Part shown: in pieces, positions 1 to 18,907 of the stretch | Numbering within the stretch: position 1 is the stretch's first letter | Layout of the letters: the number at the start of each line of letters is the position of its first letter | Assembly: GCA_016234265.1 (NCBI GenBank) | Contig: JACRFW010000033.1 | Location: 1 to 40,081, forward strand | Direction: 5' to 3' | DNA from: Candidatus Magasanikiibacteriota bacterium | Lineage (GTDB): Bacteria > Patescibacteriota > Patescibacteriia > Magasanikbacterales > GWA2-37-8 | DNA length: 40,081 nucleotides | Translations under genes and position numbers: made by a program | The notes under the pieces: generated by a model | The model's database searches: none | The model's input: only the letters and a program-made list of their open reading frames with translations | What the model was told of the DNA's origin: nothing

Positions 1-3000
1 CATAGCCAAAACTGCTGATGTTAAACCCGGCGTCAACATACTGATTGAAGAGATCGGGAACGCCGTTCAGTTTGCCCGGGTACCAGGTGAGGCAGGGGTG
101 TTTGCTGGCGTCGCCGTACAAATTGCGCGTGGTGTCATATTCCAGACAATACCCCTTCAGGCCCAGCACCCTGCTTTCTTTGTCCTTGGGCTGACAGATG
201 CCTTTGCCGCAATCGGAGTCTTTGTCGCAGGCCTTTTCCTCTCCGCGCAAACCGTTGGGGCCGCCAATACACACTCCGTTGATTTTTGCCACCTCGGTCA
301 CTGTGCCGCCCGCGGCGTGGTCAATGCCATTCGCGCCCGGGTTAGTATAATTCCAGTATTTCATCACCTGTCCAAAACCGATTTTCGTATAATCGCAGTC
401 GCACAAATAAGCCGAGCCGTCAGCGGCGCGTTTCTCGGCGCAGGTGTTGGCCAGCGCGTAGTCGGGCGCGTTCCGGCCAAAATCCAGCGATGGGAACGGA
501 GAATCTTTTTCCGGGTAGCCCCGGCAGGCTTGTTTCGGCTGTAAATCCAGATTGGCTGACGACACGCTTTCCCCGACAATGGAACGAACGCAAGTGTGGT
601 TCACGCACCATCCGCCGTTGCCGCAGGCGGTGTCGTTGGTAGTACAGGTGGAGCCGCTGGCGCAGTTCACCGCGCCGCAGGCCACTTTTTTGACCAAACG
701 GAAATCGGGAGCGCCCTTGCCGGTTTCCTCAAAATTAACGTCTTCCAACTCTTCCACCGGGAAAAGACCCAAGATGGAGTAGCCGGAAAAATGGTCGCCG
801 TTCCACCCGACCGCGCGAGCGCGATACCGCTCTTCGGTGAGGATATTGCCGGTATAGGCGCTCTTGAGAACGCCGCAACTGCCGGGCTTATCGCACCGCT
901 GGATATTTTCACAGGTATCTTTAAAATTGCCGATGGCGCTGTCAAACACCGTCCGGGTGTAAGAACAGCCGAGCCATTCGCCGCAGTCGCGGTCGCGAAC
1001 TACCTTGAACAGGACGTTAGTGTCATTCGGACGCGCCTGGTCCGCGGAATTGACCGGAGCCACCTTCGCTCCGCCCTTGGCATCGCTCGCTTGGTAGCTC
1101 AAATCTCTGGACCAGTACTTATTGGGGTTATCCGTCTGGTCAAGCAAGGTGCAGCCGGCTTTTTGGCTGGCGCCGCCGGCGCAGTCGCCCGGGTTGAGTT
1201 TGGACGGGTCATTAATCAAATAATACGCCCTGTCAATACTCTTGGCGGGGTTGGAGCGATCAGTTTTAACATGATCAACAAATTCCGTGCATTTGTCCTG
1301 GCCGCTCTGACAGGCGCCGACAAAATTTTGATATTTGTCCGCGTTGCCATACGACCACAGGCCATAGCTGTTGCCATTTTGAATATAATCCGGATAGCAG
1401 GGCTGAACGTCCTTGCCCTGGCAGGTATAGCCGCCGGCGCAGTCGGAATTGTCCCCGCAAATAACGCCATTATTCGTTTGATTGGCGGCGGTACAAACCC
1501 CCACTCCTTTCCAGAACCAGCCGTTTTTCTTGATGCCGCCGATCAAAACATCGGTCTTGTAGGCGCAGATTTTCTGGCCAACGATATCCGGATCTTTAAA
1601 ATAGAACGAACTGTTGGCCGTGTCGGTATACTTTTGGCAACCGACTGCTTCTGCCTGGCACAAAGTTTTGGTGTAACCGTCTGGATCATTGGGGTCATTC
1701 TTGATGGTCGTCGTCACATAGGTCACGCCGGTCGGGGTGGCTTTAGCCACACCGGCTAATGTACAGCCGAGGTCAAGCTGGCTGCAGGTCGCCGGCTTGC
1801 TCGCCACCAGATATATCGGCTTGTCGGCCGGAGTATCGCCGGGAATGAAGACGGTTGATTTCACGAAACTGACGCCGGCGGCCGCTTGTATTTCCGCGGC
1901 GGAATGATTCAAAATCGGCTTGTCCAAATAGCACCCGGCGGCTCCGACCGGCACCGCGCAGGAATACGAATCGGCGCCGATGACCGCTTTAGCGGTCACT
2001 CCACCCTTCCCCGTCAAGAACACGTTGTAAGCGCGCGCGCCCTCGTCGCCGCTCTGGTACCGGCCATTCACCGCCGTCACGGTATTTTGCGTATTGAGCG
2101 CGGCCGTACAGCCGATGGCTTCGGCGCGGCACAGCTGGCTAAAGTTAACGAGATTGACCGGATTGTTGTTGGCAGCGGTGTACGCGGTACAACCCAGCGC
2201 TTCCCCGGGCAAATTGTCATTGGGGTTGCTGTCGCACGCCGCGGGAACAGTGAGTTTCTTTTTTACCAAATATTTTACGTCCACCGAATGATTGAGAGTG
2301 ACATTGTCCACCCATACCTGCCCGCCGCCCGCCACCGTGAAAATGTACGATCCGCCAACGGTGGACGCGCCGTCAAGCTCAATCGGCCCCAGGTGATACT
2401 GCTGCCAGGCGTCCCCGATGCCGACCGTGCCAAAATCCTGCTCCGCTCCATCAGAGCGTTTCAGCTGCACCGTGAGCGTTCCCCCGCCGCTTCCCTTGGC
2501 CCAAAATATCGCGTCAAAACTGGCCGCCGCGTCCAGATCCACTTTTTTAGCTCCAGAACCGATAATCTGGAGAGAGTGCTCTTTTGCGCGCGTAGACTCG
2601 GTGGACAGGCTGACGCTACCGCTCCAGCCGGAGAGAGCCACTGTCGTTGATGGAGATTCAAAGGTATCGGAAAAAACCTGCCCGGCTTTGCCGGCTTCCG
2701 TGCCCTTGTAGGCCCGGCAGGTATCAACGGCGGCCGAGCAAGTTTGGCTCGCTCCCGCCGTATTCTGCGTGCCACTGGGCAGGCCGCTGTAAAAACAACT
2801 GCCATCGCGGTATTCGCCGTTCTGCAAACATTTTCCATTGGAATCCAACTCCGGGTTGCTGAGGCGATATGGCGTGCAGGCGGCTGTGACCGGAATAGTG
2901 AAAGAGAGCAAACGATAATAAATATGTCCCTGTTCATCATTAAACTGCCGGCAATCGGCGGCTGCTTTCCCCTCTTTATAACGTTGTTCATTACATTCCG

Positions 3001-5623
3001 CCAAATTGTTTTGTAACTCGGCGTCATCTCTATAAAAATATTTCGGAGCGCCGACCGGACCGTTGGCGGTATCATTATTTTCCACCAAAATATACGTCTT
3101 CAGCTGGAAACCGCCCGCCTGCGAGCCCTCATAGGTGATATATAATTTGCCTTTTTCTTTTTCCGGATTCGCGCAAGGCCGGAGATACGAGAAGTATTCC
3201 ACCTGTTCCAAACCGCCGGAGGTAGTCTGCAAATTGGTAAAGCCGGTGCAACCGGCAGCGGCGGCCGAACAAACGGCCTCGGATCGCGGAATAACATAGG
3301 CCACGGGCTGGCCCACAGAATAGCGGCCCGGCATTTCCCGGTAAGCGGCATAGCCGACGCAGCTTTGATCGCACTCGTCATTCCATTTTATCTGGCCGCC
3401 CGCAATTTCATGCGGCGTATATCGCCCGGGTACCGCCTCCCCGCCGGCCCCCGGGGTGTAGAGGTTGCAACTAACTTCCTCCGGAATGCACGCCGCGGCA
3501 TAATTGCCGCAGGCGGCAGCGGCATTGAGTTTAATCCGGGTCAGGTCAGCCACCGACTGCGGCCACTCCACCGCCGCCGTCGCCGGGTTGGCATCGTAAC
3601 ACTTCAAATAATCCGGCGCCTTCTTCAAATAGAGCAAATCGTTTGTCCTCCCCCCGCCCACCAAAAAGGCCGAACAGCCCTCCGAGTTGGCCGAACAGCT
3701 GTTGGAAATATTTTTATTGAAATAGATACCGGCGTTGGTAAAACCCTGATCAGCGCCCTGGATCTTCGGGGCCTGCCACCGGCCGTTTTGTTGAGTCAAA
3801 CTGTAGGCGGTACAGCCGATATTTTGCTCCGAGCAAAACCCGGTATCAAGAGTGCGCTGCAAATAAGACGCGCTCGCTCCGCTCACGGCATTGGTGAACG
3901 TGCGGCAAGTGGCGGCGTAGGGCGCGCACTCTTCCGCCTTAAACTTCCACTTATCCGCTTCCCGCGTGCAGTAGCCGTAATTGTCACAGACGCCGTCAGC
4001 CGTATAATGGACGCACGTCTGCACATCCATACAATCCTCCAAGCGATTGGGCACGCCGGCGCTCGCCAAAAGCGGCCCGGGAGCCTTAATCTTGCATTTG
4101 GTAAGCGGAGACTTCAGCACCCAATCAGGATCAATCAGACGGCAAAACGGATGACCGACCGGGTCGTCAACAATGCCTTTGCTATGGTCATTTGGATCAA
4201 TGAAAGTACAATTATCAAAACCCTCCTCCACCTGCGCTAGAGTCCACGGGCGATCCGGGTTGCTGTTCTTGGCGGCAATTTCAAAACCCAGCGGCAAAAT
4301 GCGCAATTGGCGCAACACCTGGATATTGCTGTAGCAATAGTTGCTCTGGTAGCAGTCACGGTCGTTATTCTTGGCCGAAGACGGCGGAATAAGCGGCCAC
4401 GCGCCGTGGAGCCACCCCTGCTTCAAAGCCTGATCAATGGTCACCGGCTCTCCCGCGTCGGCGCGCTTGAGAGCAGTGACCAGATCGTCATTGGCCCGGC
4501 AATTATAGGTTCCGGGGACATCCGGGCAGCTGGTCAATTGCGATAAAACATCGTAGTTAGCGACTTCATTTATCTTCACCGTCTGCAACTCGCGATAAAA
4601 CTCCGCCGCCACCTGGGTGCCGCCGGTGGGAATGTCGCTGATACTGTCAGCCTTTGTCCCGCCCGGAGTTTCCACGGCCGTGGGCAACGTGCCCTTATCA
4701 CGAAAATTGGTGATGGCGGTAGATACCAAAGTGTTCAAAAAAATGGATAATCCCACCGCCAAAACGCTGGGTTCGTCGCTGGTGAGAGCTTGCTTCACCG
4801 TGTCGGAGTCCTCCTTGGCGGCTTTGTCCGGCGTATTGGCCTTAAACTGCTCGGCAATCAACTCCGCCGGAGTTTGAATCTGGCCGCTAATAGGCGTTTC
4901 CTTGCCCTTAAACCCTCTTCCTTCCTGGCGCTCCAGCGTGCCAGCCACCACCTGCTGTTGAACGGTATTGGCCAGTTTTTCCGTAGTCTGAATTTGAATC
5001 CCCAGATCGCTGTTAGAATCGGCCTGAAACAAATTATTGATGCTGGTCATACGCCCAGCAATGGACGAAGCGCCGTATTTGCTGTCAAACTCCTGGCTCC
5101 AGTTGCCGGCCATCTGGGACAGACTGCATTTGGGTTTGCCCGGACCGGCCGCGCCGCCGCCGATTCCGCCAGCGCCGCCAAAATCAGTGCGCAAACCGAT
5201 TTTCATCGCCAGATCCACCTTGATATCGGGTACATGACAGAGATTTAATTTGTCCGTGCCCATCTGTTCAATAAAGGTGCCGGCGACATCGTCTCCCAGC
5301 GATTTTATATAGGAACCAAAATCTTTTGTCTGCGCGAACGGGTTCTGCCCTTTCGCGCCGCTCGCGAGCCACACCGCCGAGTCGTACGAAACCTTGCGCA
5401 CGGCATAGGCCACGGTGCGCACTGTGGCTACTTTTAAGGCGGAAATTAAAGCCTTATAAATTTGGGCACCAATGTCTTTCAATTGGGCGGGAATATCGCC
5501 AAAAGTAAAAGTGGCCAACTGGGCGTGGGCCGGCTCCGGCGCCAAGAGCCCGCCGGCCGCGGCGACAAACGCCAGGAGGACAATCAGGGCAGTCGCTATA
5601 TATTTTTTCAGTTTGACCAACAT
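1..5623 (-). CDS. giant secreted cysteine-rich protein, 3' end beyond window
   Basis: Translating the minus strand from the ATG at 5621-5623 gives one frame open to the window edge, 1874 codons with no stop. Residues 1 to about 36 form a Sec signal peptide (Lys-rich start, long Ala/Leu/Val core, AHA-Q cleavage-like site). Residues 40-300 are low in Cys. From about residue 380 the protein is rich in Cys with a recurrent C-x(5)-GC pattern (near residues 595, 640, 784, 1162, 1278, 1322), and later motifs like C-x2-DSDC-x2-G-x2-C (near 1388 and 1801). Residues about 980-1110 (VFSDTFE to VWVDNVTL) look like a carbohydrate-binding jelly roll inserted in the Cys-rich part. The gene lies 18 bp behind the type-3-repeat membrane protein and is likely cotranscribed with it. 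Exported surface or secreted role is inferred; no enzyme motif is visible. The stop and any anchor lie outside the window. Confidence 0.85.
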   Translation of the reverse strand, partial: MLVKLKKYIATALIVLLAFVAAAGGLLAPEPAHAQLATFTFGDIPAQLKDIGAQIYKALISALKVATVRTVAYAVRKVSYDSAVWLASGAKGQNPFAQTKDFGSYIKSLGDDVAGTFIEQMGTDKLNLCHVPDIKVDLAMKIGLRTDFGGAGGIGGGAAGPGKPKCSLSQMAGNWSQEFDSKYGASSIAGRMTSINNLFQADSNSDLGIQIQTTEKLANTVQQQVVAGTLERQEGRGFKGKETPISGQIQTPAELIAEQFKANTPDKAAKEDSDTVKQALTSDEPSVLAVGLSIFLNTLVSTAITNFRDKGTLPTAVETPGGTKADSISDIPTGGTQVAAEFYRELQTVKINEVANYDVLSQLTSCPDVPGTYNCRANDDLVTALKRADAGEPVTIDQALKQGWLHGAWPLIPPSSAKNNDRDCYQSNYCYSNIQVLRQLRILPLGFEIAAKNSNPDRPWTLAQVEEGFDNCTFIDPNDHSKGIVDDPVGHPFCRLIDPDWVLKSPLTKCKIKAPGPLLASAGVPNRLEDCMDVQTCVHYTADGVCDNYGYCTREADKWKFKAEECAPYAATCRTFTNAVSGASASYLQRTLDTGFCSEQNIGCTAYSLTQQNGRWQAPKIQGADQGFTNAGIYFNKNISNSCSANSEGCSAFLVGGGRTNDLLYLKKAPDYLKCYDANPATAAVEWPQSVADLTRIKLNAAAACGNYAAACIPEEVSCNLYTPGAGGEAVPGRYTPHEIAGGQIKWNDECDQSCVGYAAYREMPGRYSVGQPVAYVIPRSEAVCSAAAAGCTGFTNLQTTSGGLEQVEYFSYLRPCANPEKEKGKLYITYEGSQAGGFQLKTYILVENNDTANGPVGAPKYFYRDDAELQNNLAECNEQRYKEGKAAADCRQFNDEQGHIYYRLLSFTIPVTAACTPYRLSNPELDSNGKCLQNGEYRDGSCFYSGLPSGTQNTAGASQTCSAAVDTCRAYKGTEAGKAGQVFSDTFESPSTTVALSGWSGSVSLSTESTRAKEHSLQIIGSGAKKVDLDAAASFDAIFWAKGSGGGTLTVQLKRSDGAEQDFGTVGIGDAWQQYHLGPIELDGASTVGGSYIFTVAGGGQVWVDNVTLNHSVDVKYLVKKKLTVPAACDSNPNDNLPGEALGCTAYTAANNNPVNLVNFSQLCRAEAIGCTAALNTQNTVTAVNGRYQSGDEGARAYNVFLTGKGGVTAKAVIGADSYSCAVPVGAAGCYLDKPILNHSAAEIQAAAGVSFVKSTVFIPGDTPADKPIYLVASKPATCSQLDLGCTLAGVAKATPTGVTYVTTTIKNDPNDPDGYTKTLCQAEAVGCQKYTDTANSSFYFKDPDIVGQKICAYKTDVLIGGIKKNGWFWKGVGVCTAANQTNNGVICGDNSDCAGGYTCQGKDVQPCYPDYIQNGNSYGLWSYGNADKYQNFVGACQSGQDKCTEFVDHVKTDRSNPAKSIDRAYYLINDPSKLNPGDCAGGASQKAGCTLLDQTDNPNKYWSRDLSYQASDAKGGAKVAPVNSADQARPNDTNVLFKVVRDRDCGEWLGCSYTRTVFDSAIGNFKDTCENIQRCDKPGSCGVLKSAYTGNILTEERYRARAVGWNGDHFSGYSILGLFPVEELEDVNFEETGKGAPDFRLVKKVACGAVNCASGSTCTTNDTACGNGGWCVNHTCVRSIVGESVSSANLDLQPKQACRGYPEKDSPFPSLDFGRNAPDYALANTCAEKRAADGSAYLCDCDYTKIGFGQVMKYWNYTNPGANGIDHAAGGTVTEVAKINGVCIGGPNGLRGEEKACDKDSDCGKGICQPKDKESRVLGLKGYCLEYDTTRNLYGDASKHPCLTWYPGKLNGVPDLFNQYVDAGFNISSFGY

Positions 5624-5641: not shown

Positions 5642-6289
5642 TTAACGGGCGGCGGCGCCGGCTGATAAAGGACTCAGAAGATTTTGCAAGTTGATGCCGG
5701 CGGTGCTGGTGCTCTGCAATAATTGGTTCACCAGCAACATCAGATCGGCGTCAGAAATTTTATCCAGCAGGTCTGGCTTCATCCCGGACTGAACCAAGAG
5801 CGGCCGCAGCTGTTTCGGGTCGCGCAGTATCTGCAGCACATCGGGCGCCGACGGGGGCGCGGAGGCGGCCGACACCGTAGTAGAAACCGCGACAGTTTTC
5901 ATAACACCCTCGCCGCTTATGATCGGGTTGGTGCAATCCCGCCCCGTCGGACACAGCGGGTCGCCGCCGCGATCAATTTCCTGTTTGTCGGTCAGGCCAT
6001 CGGAATCCGTATCGGCCAGGTACGGGCTGGTGCCATAGACATAGAGCTCGTCAAAATCATTTAACCCATCGCCGTCGGTATCGCGAAAACGGAGAGAATC
6101 AATGCCGGTCACCTCATCCTTATACGCCATCGGGACCGTGTCCTTAAGCGCGAACGGTTTATACAAAACATTGCGGATCTGGATAGCCCCGAGCGTGATG
6201 CTCAAAATAGCAAAAATAAGCAGCAAGACAAAACCGATCTTCTGCTCGCGCCGTAGCCCTGGCTGTCTCTCTGGCGTTACCTCATCCAT
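5642..6289 (-). CDS. membrane protein with thrombospondin type-3 (calcium-binding) repeats
   Basis: This 215-residue protein has one membrane segment at about residues 17-40 after a charged N-terminus, giving an N-in, C-out topology. Residues about 68-105 contain two Asp-rich loops, DTDGDGLND and DTDSDGLTD, each followed by a helix with an acidic residue (FDEL, KQEI), the hallmark of calcium-binding thrombospondin type-3 repeats. The C-terminal third is a Leu-rich helical segment (VLQILRDPKQLRPLL, MLLVNQLLQ) that may bind a partner. It is the first gene of a two-gene unit with the giant Cys-rich protein, so a joint role at the cell surface is plausible but inferred. A similar repeat pair occurs in the L,D-transpeptidase at 19016-19639. 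Confidence 0.8.
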   Translation of the reverse strand: MDEVTPERQPGLRREQKIGFVLLLIFAILSITLGAIQIRNVLYKPFALKDTVPMAYKDEVTGIDSLRFRDTDGDGLNDFDELYVYGTSPYLADTDSDGLTDKQEIDRGGDPLCPTGRDCTNPIISGEGVMKTVAVSTTVSAASAPPSAPDVLQILRDPKQLRPLLVQSGMKPDLLDKISDADLMLLVNQLLQSTSTAGINLQNLLSPLSAGAAAR

Positions 6290-6377: not shown

Positions 6378-7217
6378 TCATTCTGACAAAAACGCCACCA
6401 CTTTAGTTAGTTCCACCCATCGTTCTACCGACAACTCTTGCGCGCGAGCGTTCGGTCCAAGCTCCAAACGAGTGAATATATTAGTAAGAGCAACCCTATT
6501 TTTCTTGCCCACCACCGGCAACAAATTTTTCATGAGCAGTTTACGCCTATTGGCAAACCCGGCTTTAACTAAAGCAAAAAACTTGGCGCTCTCGTCTGGA
6601 TTCATGATTCGTGATTCGTGATTCGTGATTCTAACAACGGCCGAATCCACTCGTGGCTGTGGCCAAAAGGCAGACCGAGGCACGGTCGCCACAATATCGG
6701 CATCAGCATAATACTGCACCGCGACTGAAAGCAGCGACATCTGCCCGGGCTCTGCGCAAATTCTTTCCGCCACTTCTTTTTGAACCATGAGCATCATCAG
6801 TGCCGGGGGCTTTTCTGTTTCCAAAAACAAACGGATCACCGGCGAGGTGATTTGATAAGGCAAATTGGCGACAACTTTGTAGGGAGTGGCCGGGGGCGCA
6901 AAGGATCGAAGAACGTTGCCCCACACTATTTCAATGTTAGTCTGTTTTTTTACCACTTCTGCCCAATATGGCTGCAACTTTTTTTCAATTTCAAAGGACA
7001 CTACTTTTTTCGCGTGTTCAGCGAGAGCCAGCGTGAGAACGCCAAAACCCGGTCCGACTTCAACAATCGTGTCCGATGACTTAACCCCAGAAGCTGCGAC
7101 AATAGTTTCAATTACTCCCGCGTCAATCAAATAATTCTGGCCGTATCTTTTTGACGGCGCCAGACCGTATTTTTTACAGAGGCGGAGGAGGTAGTCTTGG
7201 CTGAAGAGGTTTGGCAT
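6378..7217 (-). CDS. rsmA: 16S rRNA (A1518/A1519) dimethyltransferase RsmA/KsgA
   Basis: The 279-residue product transfers methyl groups from SAM to two adjacent adenines in helix 45 of 16S rRNA. Visible motifs are the substrate loop KRYGQNYL (about residue 23), SAM motif I VEVGPGFGVLTLAL (about 53), the acidic SAM contact SFEIE (about 75) and the catalytic NLPYQITSPV (about 119-128). Length fits the family. It is the last gene of the minus-strand run, starting 3 bp after the hydrolase stop. An oddity is a segment NHESRIMNPDES at about residues 195-207, encoded by a short tandem repeat (6598-6632), just before the conserved FFALVKAGFANRRK region. It does not hit known catalytic motifs. Confidence 0.96.
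   Translation of the reverse strand: MPNLFSQDYLLRLCKKYGLAPSKRYGQNYLIDAGVIETIVAASGVKSSDTIVEVGPGFGVLTLALAEHAKKVVSFEIEKKLQPYWAEVVKKQTNIEIVWGNVLRSFAPPATPYKVVANLPYQITSPVIRLFLETEKPPALMMLMVQKEVAERICAEPGQMSLLSVAVQYYADADIVATVPRSAFWPQPRVDSAVVRITNHESRIMNPDESAKFFALVKAGFANRRKLLMKNLLPVVGKKNRVALTNIFTRLELGPNARAQELSVERWVELTKVVAFLSE
6598..6632. repeat. short tandem repeat inside rsmA
   Basis: Four near-copies of an 8-bp unit (GATTCGTG, the first as GATTCATG) followed by a final GATTC. The repeat is read through in frame in rsmA on the minus strand and encodes part of NHESRIMN. It sits between the methyltransferase core and the C-terminal helical domain. Confidence 0.85.
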
Positions 7218-7220
7218 ACC

Positions 7221-8411
7221 CTACTCGGCTTTAAGGCCGGCATCGCTATACCGATTACTCGCGTTCCACAGCATCCAACCTGCAGTAGTGTATTTCTCAA
7301 CCGTATCAATTTGTTCGCGAATTTTATCGGCGTCATAGACCGCACCCAGGTTAAACGCTTGTATCCACGGCCGAACTTCCGCTCGAGTGCCAACAAAACG
7401 CGGGGAACCCTCTTCCATGCCATGAGCAATAACCAGCGCCGGATCATCGGCGGGATTTTTAAGACCAAGATGCCCGGATGGATAGTGCGACGGGTACATC
7501 ATCGGTGAAATATAATCAACTACACCCACCGCATCCGCAAGGCGCTGGCCAATGCGCATATCATCCTCTCCTTTTTTCTCCATCACAAAACCAAACATAT
7601 CCAGCGAGATCCACACTGGCTCGTCGGCTAATTTCTCGCTCAGATACGAATAGAACTTCCCTATCACCTCATAACGCTTGCTCGCTCCGTTACGGTAAAC
7701 TACCCGGCTCAAATCTCCGTCCGAGGGAAAGCGCACATAATCAAAATTAATTTCGTCAAATCCTAAGGCCGCCGCCTCGCGAGCAACGGCCAAGTTGTAT
7801 GCCCACACTTCCTCGCGCGTGGCATCAACCCAGGACAACCCTTTCTTATCGCGCCACACGCCGCCTTGTTTATCCTTAATCGCCCATTCCGGTTTTTTTT
7901 CGGCGAGCGCCGGGTCTTGAAAAACCGTTTGCCGGGCGATTGCATAAATTTTGTGTTCATGCAGTTTGCGAATAAGCGCGGGGATATCATCAATAAGCAC
8001 CTTTTTTGTCCCGAGTTTCTTCACCAGAGGCACCTGGCTGTCGTAGAGCACATATCCGGTATAATCTTTAATATCAATCACGATCGCGTCCAGTTCAGTA
8101 GCCTCAATGAGCTTGATAATTTCGTCTATTTTCTCCGGATTGCCGGCTGAATAGGCTGTCAGATACAGACCTTTCACCACTTGCCGCGGCGGCTTTACCC
8201 GCGGAATGGCAACGGGCTTAACCGGAGAGGCAACAAATGAAACGTCGGTCGCGGCTTTCATATCTGCCACGGCGGAAACCCACACTGCCCCGACCCCCAA
8301 AACAGCGGCCAAGCCGCACATTAAAACGACAAACACATAAAAAAATCCGCGCGGGCGCCAGTGCTCGCGAACGGTTGTTGGTACTTTTTCTGGAACCGAT
8401 TGTTCCTCCAT
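7221..8411 (-). CDS. putative membrane-anchored glycoside hydrolase (DUF4015 type)
   Basis: A 396-residue protein from the ATG at 8409-8411; a GTG 12 bp upstream (8421-8423) would overlap tsaC and is less likely. An uncleaved signal/membrane segment lies at about residues 25-50. From about residue 85 the sequence matches the putative glycoside hydrolase family seen in many bacteria: KGLYLTAYSAG, DAIVIDIKDYTGYVLYDS, WVDATREEVWAYNLAVAREAAALGFDEINFDYVRFPSDG and DYISPMMYPSHYPSG. These are the beta-strand ends of a TIM barrel with conserved Asp and Glu. The substrate is unknown; cell-wall or exopolysaccharide glycan is an inference. It sits 4 bp after tsaC and 3 bp before rsmA, in the same operon. 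Confidence 0.85.
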   Translation of the reverse strand: MEEQSVPEKVPTTVREHWRPRGFFYVFVVLMCGLAAVLGVGAVWVSAVADMKAATDVSFVASPVKPVAIPRVKPPRQVVKGLYLTAYSAGNPEKIDEIIKLIEATELDAIVIDIKDYTGYVLYDSQVPLVKKLGTKKVLIDDIPALIRKLHEHKIYAIARQTVFQDPALAEKKPEWAIKDKQGGVWRDKKGLSWVDATREEVWAYNLAVAREAAALGFDEINFDYVRFPSDGDLSRVVYRNGASKRYEVIGKFYSYLSEKLADEPVWISLDMFGFVMEKKGEDDMRIGQRLADAVGVVDYISPMMYPSHYPSGHLGLKNPADDPALVIAHGMEEGSPRFVGTRAEVRPWIQAFNLGAVYDADKIREQIDTVEKYTTAGWMLWNASNRYSDAGLKAE

Positions 8412-8415
8412 ATAA

Positions 8416-9201
8416 TTAAACACTCACCTCTTGCTCTCCTTGGCGGAAAACTTTAAATTTCCCACCAATCACACTTACTATTGTTGTTGGCGGTCGCTTC
8501 GGGAGCTCGCCATAATCTAAAATGATGTCCGGCTGTACAGCGCGATTTTGAAATTGAGCTATGACTGACTCCGCGCTATAACTATCCCCACCATCAGCAA
8601 CATTCGCGGACGTAGCCACCAACGGCTTCCCCAATTTTTCAGTGATAGATTTAAGCAACGGGTTTGCAGTCACTCGGATTGCCACCGTCCCCTCGCTTGA
8701 AACCACCCCGTCGGCTAGCGTCTCCTCCCCTTTCAAGTGGAGGGTGGGGTGGGGTCTCGCGGTTGTCGCCGTGTTATATATCTCACAAAGTTTTTCAGCC
8801 TTAGTTTTGTTTTTTCTCAATTCGCTCCTCATCCCTATTGTACGAATAAATCCAAGTAAACGCTTACCATTTGTGCGAGACCACCCCTCAATCCCCTCCT
8901 TAAAAAGAGGGGGGACGTACAAACCGACCACCGTAAGGGGGCCTGGCCAATACTTCTTAGCTAGTGTACCCAATAAATCGCTCCAAGCCAAATATTTTCG
9001 CGCCATTTCCACTGTCGGCACGACCACGAGAAGCGGTTTATCACTTTTGCGCCCCTTAATTTTAAAAATTTTGTCTACCGCCGCCTGGTTTGTGGCGTCG
9101 CACCCGAGGCCATATGATGTTTCCGTTGGGAACACAATTGTCTTGCCAGAGAGGAGATCAACGACGAGTTCAGCGAGGTTACATTCAGTGAGGATCTTCA
9201 T
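8416..9201 (-). CDS. tsaC: L-threonylcarbamoyladenylate synthase (YrdC/Sua5 family), with repeat-derived insertion
   Basis: The enzyme makes threonylcarbamoyl-AMP from Thr, bicarbonate and ATP for t6A37 of ANN-decoding tRNAs. The frame opens upstream at 9258 but that part is a palindromic repeat; the ATG at 9201 (MKILTEC) gives the natural YrdC start. Motifs: GKTIVFPTETSYGLGCDA, KIKGRKSDKPL, KYWPGPLTVV, TVAIRVTANPL and KPLVATSANVADGGD. Between TVVGLYV (about residue 94) and GTVAIRV (about 163) there is an insertion of about 65 residues not expected in this family, starting PPLFKEGIEGW and ending near HPTLHLKGEE. Both ends are encoded by purine/pyrimidine-rich repeats. The frame stays open, so the protein may still be functional. 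Confidence 0.92.
   Translation of the reverse strand: MKILTECNLAELVVDLLSGKTIVFPTETSYGLGCDATNQAAVDKIFKIKGRKSDKPLLVVVPTVEMARKYLAWSDLLGTLAKKYWPGPLTVVGLYVPPLFKEGIEGWSRTNGKRLLGFIRTIGMRSELRKNKTKAEKLCEIYNTATTARPHPTLHLKGEETLADGVVSSEGTVAIRVTANPLLKSITEKLGKPLVATSANVADGGDSYSAESVIAQFQNRAVQPDIILDYGELPKRPPTTIVSVIGGKFKVFRQGEQEVSV
8715..8760. repeat. purine/pyrimidine-rich repeat inside tsaC, copy 1
   Basis: A stretch with CTCCTCCCCTTT and AAGTGGAGGGTGGGG arms that can fold back on itself. Read in tsaC on the minus strand it encodes HPTLHLKGEE. It marks one end of the extra segment in the enzyme. Confidence 0.7.
8881..8922. repeat. purine/pyrimidine-rich repeat inside tsaC, copy 2
   Basis: CCCCTCCTT and AAGAGGGGGG arms form a hairpin-like element. 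On the minus strand it encodes PPLFKEGIEGW, a peptide typical of coding-tolerated repeats in many bacterial genomes. It marks the other end of the tsaC insertion. Confidence 0.7.
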
Positions 9202-10484: not shown

Positions 10485-10973
10485 CTAAAACAATTTATCA
10501 AGCCCCACTGTTACCGAGGTAATGACCATGGCCGAGGCCACCACGCCCGCCAATACATACGGCCATGATTTGTTCACCGGTATGCCGAGCAAAAAAGCCG
10601 CGATGGCGGCGGTGTATGAGCCCGTACCCGGGAGCGAGATAGCGATGAACAAGAATAATCCGATCAAGCCATACTTTTCATATTTGGCAAAACTTTTCTG
10701 GATACTCGCCAAATGCCGCGCCCAGGCTTTGCCAAAAAAGAAACCAGACCGTTTTTCCACCCAGCGATGAAACCTCTCGCCAAACAATAAAATGAGAGTG
10801 GTGGGAATCATATTGCCGGCCACCGACCACACTATCGCCTCCCACGCCGGCAGGTGGTAACGAAAAATTGCTACCGGCAACGACAAACGGATTTCCGCCA
10901 CCGGCACCATCGCCAAAAAGAACGTGTCGATCTCCGGAGGAAAGTGGGAAAAAAATAAAATCAGACTACGCAT
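10485..10973 (-). CDS. small multidrug export-like membrane protein (COG2426 type)
   Basis: A 162-residue integral membrane protein with about four hydrophobic segments. Conserved features are FLAMVPVAEIRLSLPVAI near the N-terminus, FGERFHRWVEKRSG in the central loop, KYEKYGLIGLFLFIAISLPGTGSYTAAIAAFLLG and a final helix ASAMVITSVTVGL. These match the family annotated as putative small multidrug export protein; substrate and transport activity are uncertain. Its start overlaps the dedA stop by 8 bp, so translation of the two is probably coupled. Confidence 0.82.
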   Translation of the reverse strand: MRSLILFFSHFPPEIDTFFLAMVPVAEIRLSLPVAIFRYHLPAWEAIVWSVAGNMIPTTLILLFGERFHRWVEKRSGFFFGKAWARHLASIQKSFAKYEKYGLIGLFLFIAISLPGTGSYTAAIAAFLLGIPVNKSWPYVLAGVVASAMVITSVTVGLDKLF

Positions 10974-11589
10974 ATTTTTTCTTGTTCTTCAGATGCCGCC
11001 AGACATACCAGCCAACGGCTACGACCACAAGCAGAGCAATACTTATGTCAAAATTGTGCAGGGTGGCGCGAATATTCTCCCAATTAGCGCCCATCTTGAC
11101 ACCGAGCCAGCCGAAAAGCCACACCCAGGGCAATGCCCCGAGCGTGGTATAGATAATAAATTTTTTCAGATTCATTTTGGCAATACCGGCCGGAAAAGAA
11201 ATATAAGTGCGAACCACCGGCAAAAGGCGCCCAAAAAATACTGTGAGCGGGCCATAGTTCAGAAACCAACGATCAGCCAAATCTAAATCATGTTTAGAGA
11301 TGAGAATATATTTGCCATATTTTTCAATGAGCGGCCGGCCACCACGATGCCCGATCCAATATGCTAACAGCGAACCCGCCACGTTGCCGAGAGTTCCGAC
11401 GAGCACAATGGCGATCAGCGTCAACTGGCCTTTGAACACCAAGAAGCCCGAAAAAGGCATAATCACCTCCGATGGCACCGGCACGCCGCTACTCTCCAAA
11501 AGCATTAATAAAAAAATTCCGCCATAACCGAGAAAGCTAATGGTCCCTACCACTATAGCGGCCAGCACATCAATAATTTTCGTAATCAT
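10966..11589 (-). CDS. DedA family membrane protein
   Basis: The 207-residue protein has the DedA/SNARE-associated architecture: LLMLLESSGVPVPSEVIMPFSGFL (re-entrant loop with the conserved Glu and Pro), GNVAGSLLAYWIGHRGGRPLIEKYG, and FFGRLLPVVRTYISFPAGIAKM with the conserved F-x-R-x(3)-P-x-x-R motif, then two C-terminal helices. DedA proteins help flip lipid carriers such as undecaprenyl phosphate and maintain membrane potential. It is the first gene of the minus-strand run that continues through prfB to rsmA, and has its own promoter at 11622-11650. Confidence 0.9.
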   Translation of the reverse strand: MITKIIDVLAAIVVGTISFLGYGGIFLLMLLESSGVPVPSEVIMPFSGFLVFKGQLTLIAIVLVGTLGNVAGSLLAYWIGHRGGRPLIEKYGKYILISKHDLDLADRWFLNYGPLTVFFGRLLPVVRTYISFPAGIAKMNLKKFIIYTTLGALPWVWLFGWLGVKMGANWENIRATLHNFDISIALLVVVAVGWYVWRHLKNKKKYA

Positions 11590-11621
11590 AAAAAAGGATA
11601 TTGCCTATATCTTGTGCCCAT

Positions 11622-11650
11622 ATAGTACCTGATTTCCTCATGCTTGACAA
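11622..11650 (-). promoter_or_regulatory. promoter for dedA operon
   Basis: Minus strand -35 TTGTCA (11645-11650), 17-bp spacer, -10 TACTAT (11622-11627). The -35 overlaps the -35 of the divergent plus-strand promoter by five bases, so the two promoters probably compete for polymerase. Confidence 0.6.
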
Positions 11651-11672
11651 TCGCGCCAAAAAATACTATACT
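11644..11672 (+). promoter_or_regulatory. strong sigma-70 type promoter for the GC-rich gene at 11726
   Basis: Perfect -35 TTGACA (11644-11649), 17-bp spacer, -10 TATACT (11667-11672). The leader carries two small hairpins, GGTT/AACC (11678-11689) and CTCCCC/GGGGAG (11695-11711), just ahead of the ribosome binding site. Confidence 0.8.
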
Positions 11673-11725
11673 AATGCGGTTGTCCAACCCACGACTCCCC
11701 ATCTTGGGGAGGAGGCACACCACAC

Positions 11726-12091
11726 GTGAACACTGCAACTGTGAATGAAGCCACGTCAGCGTCGCAGCCGACGAACGAGGGGGATGAGAGCCAGCCCCGC
11801 CGCATCCACGAAGTCAGGGGTGAACCGGGCAACTACCACTTCGCCGACGGGAAGCGGGAGGCGGCCCGGGTCAAGTACTTCGGAACCATCGATCTCCATG
11901 GGGATGCTCCGCCGACGACCGACCAGGTCAGGCTCCGCATCGTGAGCGCCCTCAGCCGCAAGATCAGCCGCAAGATCGTCGGCTTCACGGTCTTCCCCGA
12001 CTCCGAGACCCAGTACGAAGGTAGGTGGAAGATCCGCCTCTACACCGCCAGCGCCGCCACCACCCAGGTCGCTCCCACGGGCCACGCCTAG
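11726..12091 (+). CDS. GC-rich small protein of unknown function
   Basis: A 121-residue protein from a GTG start, chosen because GGAGG lies 10 nt upstream. I do not recognise the family. The first 25 residues are polar and likely disordered; the middle (about 28-105) has alternating strands and one amphipathic helix (VRLRIVSALSRKISRKIVGF), suggesting a small globular alpha/beta domain; the C-terminus is Ala/Thr-rich. Almost all codons end in G or C (GCC, CTC, GAG, AAG, GTC), unlike flanking genes. It stands alone between a consensus promoter and a large palindrome, on the strand opposite to its neighbours. It could be acquired DNA. An antisense frame of 109 codons over the same span is judged a composition artefact. 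Confidence 0.65.
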   Translation: MNTATVNEATSASQPTNEGDESQPRRIHEVRGEPGNYHFADGKREAARVKYFGTIDLHGDAPPTTDQVRLRIVSALSRKISRKIVGFTVFPDSETQYEGRWKIRLYTASAATTQVAPTGHA

Positions 12092-12121
12092 CTAGGGGTC
12101 CATCACCGCCTCACTCTCAAA

Positions 12122-12154
12122 ACGAGTGGGCGGTCCATCCGGCCACCCACTCGT
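12122..12154 (+). other. hairpin downstream of the GC-rich gene
   Basis: Nine-base arms ACGAGTGGG (12122-12130) and CCCACTCGT (12146-12154) enclose a 15-nt loop. No T-run follows, so it may stabilise the 3' end of the transcript more than terminate it. Confidence 0.5.
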
Positions 12155-12206
12155 CACGAGTTATTTCTCTCCGAGATATTTCATGACGGGTGGCTGGAAT
12201 AGCTTC

Positions 12207-12250
12207 AATAACAAGAACCCCCCGACTTAAGTCGGGGGGTTCTTGTTATT
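12207..12250. terminator. 44-bp perfect palindrome, bidirectional terminator between convergent genes
   Basis: Two 22-nt arms meet without a spacer at 12228/12229: AATAACAAGAACCCCCC plus GACTT and its exact complement. It lies between the plus-strand GC-rich gene and the 3' end of groEL on the minus strand. The GC-rich core flanked by A/T-rich arms suits termination from both sides. A perfect uninterrupted palindrome of this size is unusual. Confidence 0.8.
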
Positions 12251-12269
12251 GACTTCTGAATTTCTTTTT

Positions 12270-13931
<1,662 letters not shown>

Positions 13932-16889: not shown

Positions 16890-17663
16890 TTAAGAAATGA
16901 TCTTACCTTCAATCACCTTAGTATCTGCTTTGGGGGCACCCGGTTCATCGCCCTTGCGAAACATAAAAAGCTGCTGGGCTAGCATGAGGGCTGTGCTCAA
17001 AAACCAATAAAGAGTGAGACCGGCCGGAAATTTAAAACCAATCAAAACCGTCATGACCGGCATCACATAGAGCATCTGCTTGTTCATCATAGCCGCCATA
17101 TCTTCGTCTTTGCCGCCCGCCCCCGCTTCCTTCGGCGCTTTCTTGCGAGTCAAAGTCTTGGCTTGAAAAAATTGAGCCAAACCAGCCAAAACCGAAAGCG
17201 CGATGCTCGGCTTGGCCAGATCAAAAGATCCCAGCGACAGCGGATTCAGCGTTCCCGGGTTGCGCACAAAAGAATACAGATTAGCTCCAAGATTTTGCGA
17301 AGCCAACCCATCGCGCAGTACCCAGAAAAGAGCGATGAGCAATGGCAATTGAACCAACATGGGGAGGCACGAGGTTAGAGGGTTTACCTTGTGCGTCTTG
17401 TAAAGAGCCATCGTGGCCTCGGCCTGCTTTTGTTTATCATTTGGAAAATCCTTTTTTATCGCTTCCATCTTGGGCTGCAGCTCTTGCATGGATTTCTGAG
17501 CCTTGATAGACGAGGTGGTCAAGGGATACAAGGCCAGCCGAACGAGAACTGTCAAAACAAAAATCACCACGCCCAAATCATGACCGGGCAGAATATTATA
17601 CAAGCCGACAAACAAATTAAAAATGGGTTTATAGAGAATGATGTTGAAAAGGGAAGAAATCAT
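16890..17663 (-). CDS. yidC: membrane protein insertase YidC/Oxa1
   Basis: A 257-residue insertase of the short Gram-positive-like form, without the large periplasmic P1 domain. TM segments include IFVLTVLVRLALYPLTTSS with the conserved hydrophilic-groove Arg, the cytoplasmic coiled-coil hairpin SIKAQKSMQELQPKMEAIKKDF, LPMLVQLPLLIALFWVL, and the C-terminal pair MLYVMPVMTVLIGFKFPAGLTLYWF. It folds proteins into the inner membrane alone or with SecYEG. It follows nusA by 11 bp. That is unusual: yidC is generally next to rnpA and jag, none of which appears here. Confidence 0.95.
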   Translation of the reverse strand: MISSLFNIILYKPIFNLFVGLYNILPGHDLGVVIFVLTVLVRLALYPLTTSSIKAQKSMQELQPKMEAIKKDFPNDKQKQAEATMALYKTHKVNPLTSCLPMLVQLPLLIALFWVLRDGLASQNLGANLYSFVRNPGTLNPLSLGSFDLAKPSIALSVLAGLAQFFQAKTLTRKKAPKEAGAGGKDEDMAAMMNKQMLYVMPVMTVLIGFKFPAGLTLYWFLSTALMLAQQLFMFRKGDEPGAPKADTKVIEGKIIS

Positions 17664-17674
17664 AGCGCTATCGC

Positions 17675-18907
17675 TTATTCCGCTTTCTCTTCAACGGCGG
17701 CGATTTCCGGCGCAACTTTCGGCTCGGCCGGTTCTTCGGCCGCGGCCTCGGCGGCAGAGGGCGCGGTCTCACCGCCAAGCTGAACTACATTTATTTTCCA
17801 GCCGGTAAGCTCAGAGGCTAAGCGCACATTCTGGCCGGAGCGGCCAATCGCGATGGAGAACTGCTCCGGAGCGACGGTAACGGTAGCTGTCCTTTCGGCA
17901 TCGTTCAGTTCTACTGAAACAACTTTTGCCGGCGACAAAGCATGAGTGACATAACCGGCGGCGTCTTCGTCATATTGGATGACATCAATTTTCTCTCCGC
18001 CCAGCTCTTCAATGACGGTATTGATGCGGCTGCCGCGCTGGCCAATGCAGGAACCGATCGGGTCAATGGACGAATCATCGGTCGCCACCGCCACTTTGGA
18101 GCGAAAACCGGCATCACGGGCCACCCCCTTAATTTGGATGACACCGCTCGCTACCTCGGGAATTTCTTGCCGAAACACTTCGCGCACCATGCCCGTTGCG
18201 GCGCGAGACAAAATAATCTCCGGCCCGCGAGCGGTCATTTCCACTTTCACTACAAAAAATTTCATCCGCGCTCCCGGGCGATAGTGTTCGTTGAAAATCA
18301 TCTGATCAGACGGCATGATGCCGGTAATTTTACCGAGATCAATCAAAACTTTCCGCCCTTCCACGCGCTGGACAGTGCCGAGAATCAACGTTCCTTCCTG
18401 ACCCTTGAAGTCGCCAAAGACAACGGCGCGCTCCGCCTCGCGGATCTTCTGAATAATCACCTGCTTGGCCGTCTGCGCGGCCATGCGGCCAAACTCATGC
18501 GGTATTTCCAAAGAAATTTCCAGCACTTCACCCACCTCAGCTTTTTTCTTCACCTCTTTGGCCTGGGAGAGCATCATTTCGGTCTTCGGGTTGAAGCGGG
18601 GCAAATCAGCCGTTTCCTCTTCGGTTAATTCACGACCCTCCTCACGCGCTTTTTCCCGTCTAGCCATCAGTTCATCCTGGGCCTTCTCCAAAACGTCTTC
18701 AGCAATGTCCGGAACTACGGTTTTGACATCCCACGCCTGCATATTACCGGTCGCCGGATCAAATTTTACTTTGATATTTTGCTGCTTGTTGCCAAAATCT
18801 TTGCGGTAGGCGGCCGCGAGCGCGGCCTCAATGGTTTCCATGACAGCGTCATAGGTCAAACCCTTCTCATCGCACAAAGCCTGAATCGCCTTAGTGATAT
18901 CGGACAT
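17675..18907 (-). CDS. nusA: transcription termination/antitermination protein NusA
   Basis: NusA binds RNA polymerase and nascent RNA to modulate pausing, termination and antitermination. In order: the N-terminal polymerase-binding domain (1-130) with the usual YDAVMETIEAALAAAYRKDFG, interrupted by a charged helical insertion at about 78-120; the S1 domain (about 150-215, GQEGTLILGTVQRVEGRKVLIDL); KH1 with DPIGSCIGQRGSRI (about 277); and KH2 with FSIAIGRSGQNVRLASELTGW (about 345). The tail of about 40 residues is Ala/Glu-rich. The acidic repeats of enterobacterial NusA are absent. nusA is first in the nusA-yidC pair, not with rimP and infB as in most bacteria. Confidence 0.96.
   Translation of the reverse strand: MSDITKAIQALCDEKGLTYDAVMETIEAALAAAYRKDFGNKQQNIKVKFDPATGNMQAWDVKTVVPDIAEDVLEKAQDELMARREKAREEGRELTEEETADLPRFNPKTEMMLSQAKEVKKKAEVGEVLEISLEIPHEFGRMAAQTAKQVIIQKIREAERAVVFGDFKGQEGTLILGTVQRVEGRKVLIDLGKITGIMPSDQMIFNEHYRPGARMKFFVVKVEMTARGPEIILSRAATGMVREVFRQEIPEVASGVIQIKGVARDAGFRSKVAVATDDSSIDPIGSCIGQRGSRINTVIEELGGEKIDVIQYDEDAAGYVTHALSPAKVVSVELNDAERTATVTVAPEQFSIAIGRSGQNVRLASELTGWKINVVQLGGETAPSAAEAAAEEPAEPKVAPEIAAVEEKAE

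Follow-up and report, generated by a model that had tools for sequence, protein, structure and literature searches.

A giant cysteine-rich secreted protein of class ABY1 Patescibacteria as a candidate outer subunit of their type IV secretion system

In virB operons the virB5 gene lies directly before virB6, and the TraN protein of F-type plasmids is a cysteine-rich protein of the outer surface. VirB5, IcmX, and TrwJ constitute the channel-top or pilus-tip subunit of their type IV secretion systems (T4SSs), and in the systems reviewed VirB5/IcmX make pentamers with VirB6/DotA (PMC12857230). For the Patescibacteria, the consulted portion of a T4SS survey lists VirB4, TrsD, PrgI, VirB6, and VirB2-like proteins and reports no PrgB-type adhesin (PMC12102498). 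The T4SS of Southlakia, the only species examined in this respect, is essential for epibiotic growth and is without recognisable coupling and relaxase proteins (PMC10633639). The role of the T4SS in Patescibacteria has been called completely unknown (PMC11665869).

The stretch of DNA analyzed here (the window, 40,081 nucleotides) is the entire contig C16 of a 913 kb genome assembled in 55 contigs and 98% complete, and it carries at one end the frame of a giant secreted cysteine-rich protein. The association of this giant with a T4SS is well supported. As in the described Patescibacteria systems (MPF_FATA-like; PMC12102498, PMC10633639), PrgI, VirB4-N, and VirB4 are found beside the giant's homologues and VirB6 downstream of them, but neither the giant nor the small subunit that shares its N-terminal domain (N-domain) is mentioned in the consulted portion of the survey (PMC12102498). 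The giant resembles VirB5/IcmX/TrwJ in being secreted, in having an N-domain predicted at low confidence to be helical, and in being encoded directly before virB6, whereas PF07996 (VirB5) and the structure are unmatched and the ABY1 giant is about ten times larger. With the PrgB-type and other Gram-positive conjugation adhesins it shares the character of a large secreted, putative surface protein and a monoderm-type T4SS locus; unlike PrgB and the sortase-anchored adhesins, it is predicted to be rich in disulfides and has neither a C-terminal anchor helix nor a domain match. No earlier description of it was found in the open-licence literature, supplements aside, and as an enlarged outer T4SS part it appears to be previously undescribed. 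We propose that probably, though far from certainly, it serves the chromosomal T4SS of Patescibacteria as a subunit on the outside of the cell and has been made enormous in the class ABY1.

The features of the window that bear on this proposal are collected in Table 1. A secreted frame of more than 1874 residues with a signal peptide, as claimed in the initial annotation, is indeed present: the N-terminal hydrophobic helix is followed by the cleavage site PEPAHA↓Q, in which A34 is invariant among 72 homologues. The 3′ end of the 1874-codon frame is cut off by the contig end; the giant as a whole would take up almost 1% of the genome. Full-length relatives have mostly 2260–3370 residues, and since the complete giants of the named set average 2863, about a quarter to a third of the window copy is absent; the full protein is expected to have about 2500–2900 residues in total. 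Its final ~700 residues are absent from all other contigs of the same assembly. The frame is genuine and no assembly artefact. It holds in the related genomes, as the giant was found in 56 of the 57 searched (its own counted), nearly all without internal stops. An open frame of "26141 aa" in contig C8 of genome G490 was rejected as an artefact of an N run that encodes no protein.

Table 1. Coordinates of the giant, its domains, and its upstream neighbors in the window
Feature	Position	Strand	Remarks
Giant secreted Cys-rich protein, residues 1–1874	2..5623	-	ATG start, stopless frame to contig end
Signal peptide, residues 1–34, cleavage after AHA	5522..5623	-	Single hydrophobic helix
N-terminal domain, residues 35–310, mostly helical	4694..5521	-	Common to small T4SS-linked secreted proteins
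First Cys-rich region, residues 350–980	2684..4576	-	C-x5-GC at 597, 643, 785
CBM_4_9-type jelly roll, residues 983–1120	2264..2677	-	PF02018, PDB, predicted fold
Second Cys-rich region, residues 1130–1874	2..2236	-	C-x5-GC at 1165, 1280, 1322
One-span membrane protein carrying TSP3 repeats of calcium-binding type	5642..6289	-	PF18884
KsgA-type rRNA methyltransferase	6378..7217	-	Named from sequence and gene-order conservation

With a profile of its first 1190 residues, the giant was found in 218 of the 240 ABY1 genomes, and in 190 of the 200 of good quality, where all genome and locus counts given here are drawn from related genomes and do not represent independent events. There is usually one copy per genome. 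The giant is a near-core protein of the Patescibacteria class ABY1, in agreement with the Patescibacteria origin and the conservation assumed at the outset. The named contigs that carry it belong to Magasanikbacteria, Uhrbacteria, Falkowbacteria, and Kuenenbacteria, and others stand under general Patescibacteria titles; Candidatus Magasanikbacteria, among which the nearest named relatives are found, belong to the class ABY1 within the Patescibacteria/Minisyncoccota. No full-length giant was found outside ABY1 in a profile search of the other classes, and a search of viral contigs returned no relatives, leaving a viral origin unsupported. Given the presence in 218 of 240 ABY1 genomes, the key surface function suggested in the initial annotation is plausible, and host attachment or polymer binding may be what it consists of.

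In the N-domain, C129, C166, and P252 are conserved. The predicted model of this domain is helical and of low confidence (pLDDT mostly 50–70), and no VirB5 structure is among its best matches listed. Residues 350–1874 are Cys-rich and largely beta. The prediction gives pLDDT values of 80–97 for most of residues 350–555 and 660–1190, with a low-confidence stretch at about 556–642. No PDB or Pfam relative was found for the first Cys-rich region. The carbohydrate-binding-like jelly roll, placed near residues 980–1110 from the sequence alone, is confirmed as a CBM_4_9 domain at residues ~983–1120: PF02018 matches 37 of 51 homologues (best value 6.7e-9), the window's own copy falling below threshold, and in the PDB the CBM profile matches the CBM4 structure 1gui at 5.4e-8 as well as other CBM4-, CBM16-, and CBM22-type structures, including 2zey. 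The domain differs from known CBM_4_9 modules in that it sits in a Cys-rich chain without a recognised enzyme domain. A match to a characterized family, named in the initial annotation as evidence against its reading, was obtained for the CBM domain but not for the remainder, and the whole giant gave no matches in Pfam (E ≤ 1), NCBIfam, PADLOC, or the PDB sequences.

In the relatives, the second Cys-rich region extends to a Cys-rich C-terminal domain. This domain, which has a PKD-like "DWGDG" motif, gave no Pfam match in ten homologues, and when the C-terminal half was modelled with AF2 in a relative, the prediction was of low confidence, with no fold match. Neither an SLH nor another coat domain was found in the giant with Pfam at E ≤ 1, and ten full-length or near-full-length relatives have the N-terminal helix only, with no C-terminal membrane helix. 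Pfam and PDB searches that included the homologues found no catalytic domain. We have also considered a toxin reading of the first half, which was rejected. The Foldseek matches to pore-forming and crystal-toxin proteins have a TM of ~0.1 over the query in long gapped alignments, the compact Foldseek matches are CBMs, and we attribute the toxin matches to the shared jelly roll.

The cysteines are strongly conserved. In an alignment of 77 homologues with ~33% identity, about 73 of the giant's 76 cysteines are matched by Cys in 90% or more of the sequences that cover the position. Complete proteins have 68–152 Cys, and the number is even in 51 of 62; five other residues (W, H, M, G, and Y) have even counts in 28–37 of these proteins. 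In the residue pairs 472–494, 1222–1231, and 1377–1401, Cys are gained or lost jointly (r 0.92–1.0, with kinship ignored). DsbA-like thioredoxins are encoded in all 19 related genomes examined and VKOR in 10 of these 19, with two copies of the latter in the giant's own genome. The simplest reading of these sequence patterns would be an ectodomain with all its Cys paired in disulfides. The C-x5-GC pattern noted in the initial annotation is real and conserved, but it does not recur dozens of times as had been stated. There are six exact matches, versus 0.3 expected in shuffles (maximum of 4 in 1000), and such a number fits only the loose Cys pairs, of which the giant has 27 more of the form C-x(4–7)-C.

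The pairing of the giant with a type-3-repeat membrane protein, also proposed earlier, is confirmed. The TSP3 protein is encoded directly upstream of the giant in 67 of 72 loci with a median gap of 7 bp, and the two genes are therefore probably co-transcribed. The KsgA gene marks the conserved gene order and is probably not itself a part of the machine. It adjoins in the window a gene for a DUF4015 putative glycosyl hydrolase (6.6e-104; 7221–8423, minus strand), of which about 26 of 80 loci have a homologue in the vicinity.

Downstream of the giant, a VirB6-like multi-span gene follows at a distance of 26–7149 bp in 31 of the 49 ABY1 loci with enough sequence; in the other 18, the downstream stretch is without such a gene. 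Past VirB6, the ABY1 relatives encode further cytosolic proteins, PrgI (PF12666, 1e-10), VirB4-N, and VirB4 (PF19044, 3e-29), and the giant is seen in relatives on the same strand as VirB4, PrgI, and VirB6. In one ABY1 locus (L148) the complete order KsgA–TSP3–giant–VirB6–x–PrgI–VirB4N–VirB4 lies on a single strand. In another (L090) the giant is parted from KsgA and TSP3, with VirB6 still close on the same strand. In the giant's own genome the T4SS genes sit on a separate contig (C28, locus L044), and we attribute the hidden linkage to the contig break, the 3′ end of the giant being unassembled. In the closest relative (L066) a few other genes are followed by the contig end and no T4SS linkage is visible, while it is visible in relatives from 47% identity outward.

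Outside ABY1, only residues ~7–300 of the giant find matches (E down to 4e-16), which were obtained independently of the neighboring genes; the CBM part matches unrelated CBM proteins there too. These N-domain proteins are secreted and have mostly 280–900 residues. A second profile detects such a domain in 59 of the 380 genomes searched across the phylum. Of these, 28 do not belong to ABY1, a number that is a lower bound because the small profile restricts detection beyond ABY1; PrgI is present in 357 of the 380. The order around the small homologues is UvrD–KsgA–TSP3 or another one-span protein–N-domain protein–VirB6–one or two proteins–PrgI–VirB4N–VirB4, with small variations or contig-end cuts (L139, L140, L142–L145, L186–L188, L190–L192). 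In L140, L142–L145, L186–L188, L190, and L191 the order from KsgA to VirB4 runs along one strand as in L148, again with small variations. VirB6 is named here from PF04610 above the cut-off in L143 and from similarity and membrane spans elsewhere. TSP3 proteins are found upstream of several of the small homologues, and the N-domain and PrgI genes are 4–8 kb apart on the same strand in nine genomes (G264, G344, G077, G141, G096, G113, G154, G297, and G131). A domain homologous to that of the giant is present, then, at the equivalent position in other classes. Since the N-domain alone occupies the same place before VirB6 there, the ABY1 giant is most simply an enlarged form of the small subunit, and the change in size would have run from small to large.

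These observations suggest where the giant may be located and what it may do. In a fuller version of our proposal, which is possible but which we hold with some doubt, the N-domain protein and its TSP3 partner would form an undescribed T4SS subunit shared among Patescibacteria, and in ABY1 it would have become a disulfide-stapled stalk or nozzle of 2300–3800 residues with a sugar-binding domain that seizes the host. In the basic proposal already, the N-domain would dock onto the VirB6 channel from outside, the position taken by VirB5/IcmX elsewhere, with the TSP3 protein as the membrane partner. The ~100 cysteines would pair into about 50 disulfides through a DsbA-like oxidase, in many genomes with VKOR, yielding a rigid, protease-resistant stalk through and past the cell wall. 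With its CBM and further outer domains, the giant could then attach to glycans on host or prey cells and hold the machine on its target. PF07996 gave no match above the cut-off in the giant's own genome or 18 relatives, nor was it among the matches of 11 N-domains at E ≤ 10. The comparison with VirB5 is accordingly one of working like it and not of being it.

An alternative that deserves serious attention, although we consider it unlikely, is that the giant works on its own, as an adhesin or a protein of the cell coat, and that its adjacency to the T4SS is leftover ancestral gene order. Gene order in reduced genomes can outlast functional coupling, and a very large, secreted, CBM-bearing protein with a TSP3 partner would suit such a function well; the missing VirB6-like gene in 18 of the 49 loci and the lack of a match to known T4SS families point in the same direction. 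However, the N-domain keeps its place before VirB6 in other classes where it has no adhesive body, and after the rearrangement in L090 it is VirB6 and not KsgA that the giant is near. The missing coat domains and C-terminal membrane helix also argue against this alternative.

The richness in cysteine, the secretion, and the T4SS locus are shared with TraN, and with its many probable disulfides the giant could be conceived as a receptor-binding, mating-pair-stabilising T4SS part, i.e., a functional analogue of TraN rather than an extension of the channel. We find this improbable, as the giant is several times the size of TraN and the window protein matches nothing in Pfam at E up to 1 (a sequence-to-family comparison only); with Patescibacteria taken as monoderm, there is moreover no outer membrane for a TraN-like protein. 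Even less credible is that the giant is a substrate secreted by the T4SS, such as an effector or a polymer-degrading enzyme, and not a part of the machine. Glycoside hydrolases are commonly accompanied by CBM modules, and the DUF4015 protein is encoded nearby, but the giant itself revealed no catalytic domain, and its Sec signal peptide and probable oxidative folding do not fit a substrate. Nor does a single-copy, near-universal gene in a structural operon, with an N-domain common to several classes.

Compared to the initial annotation, the new elements are the T4SS locus of the giant and the N-domain as a T4SS-linked module of several classes. The conserved subunit whose gene precedes VirB6, of modest size in several classes and a sugar-binding giant in ABY1, is a concrete candidate for the host-facing end of the T4SS and offers a starting point for work on Patescibacteria in laboratory culture. 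If the fuller proposal is true, such a sugar-binding stalk or nozzle would be a new architecture for the exterior of a secretion system. Some 50 probable disulfides in one secreted bacterial protein, encoded in a genome below 1 Mb, are unusual in themselves.

A few further genes of these loci are worth mentioning. In the non-ABY1 locus L144 (9954–12329), a second secreted protein of 791 aa with 12 Cys is encoded between the N-domain protein and VirB6; it matches the TSP3 partner and may represent an alternative enlargement of the same outer part. On contig C28 of the giant's own genome (L044), three cytosolic-looking proteins of 325–412 aa are encoded between VirB6 and PrgI (10566–13831); they gave no convincing Pfam family and have relatives in several ABY1 loci. 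Between VirB6 and the end of the same contig lies a fragment of an AbiEii-like nucleotidyltransferase (17467–17952), near the expected position of the giant's end. Finally, in at least 16 of 54 ABY1 loci (including L049, L066, L068, L070, L083, L090, L100, and L113), a small, highly variable lipoprotein-like gene is located just past the stop of the giant on the opposite strand, convergent with it in every case, and encodes a lipobox Cys followed by a D/G/S/T/N/P-rich linker.
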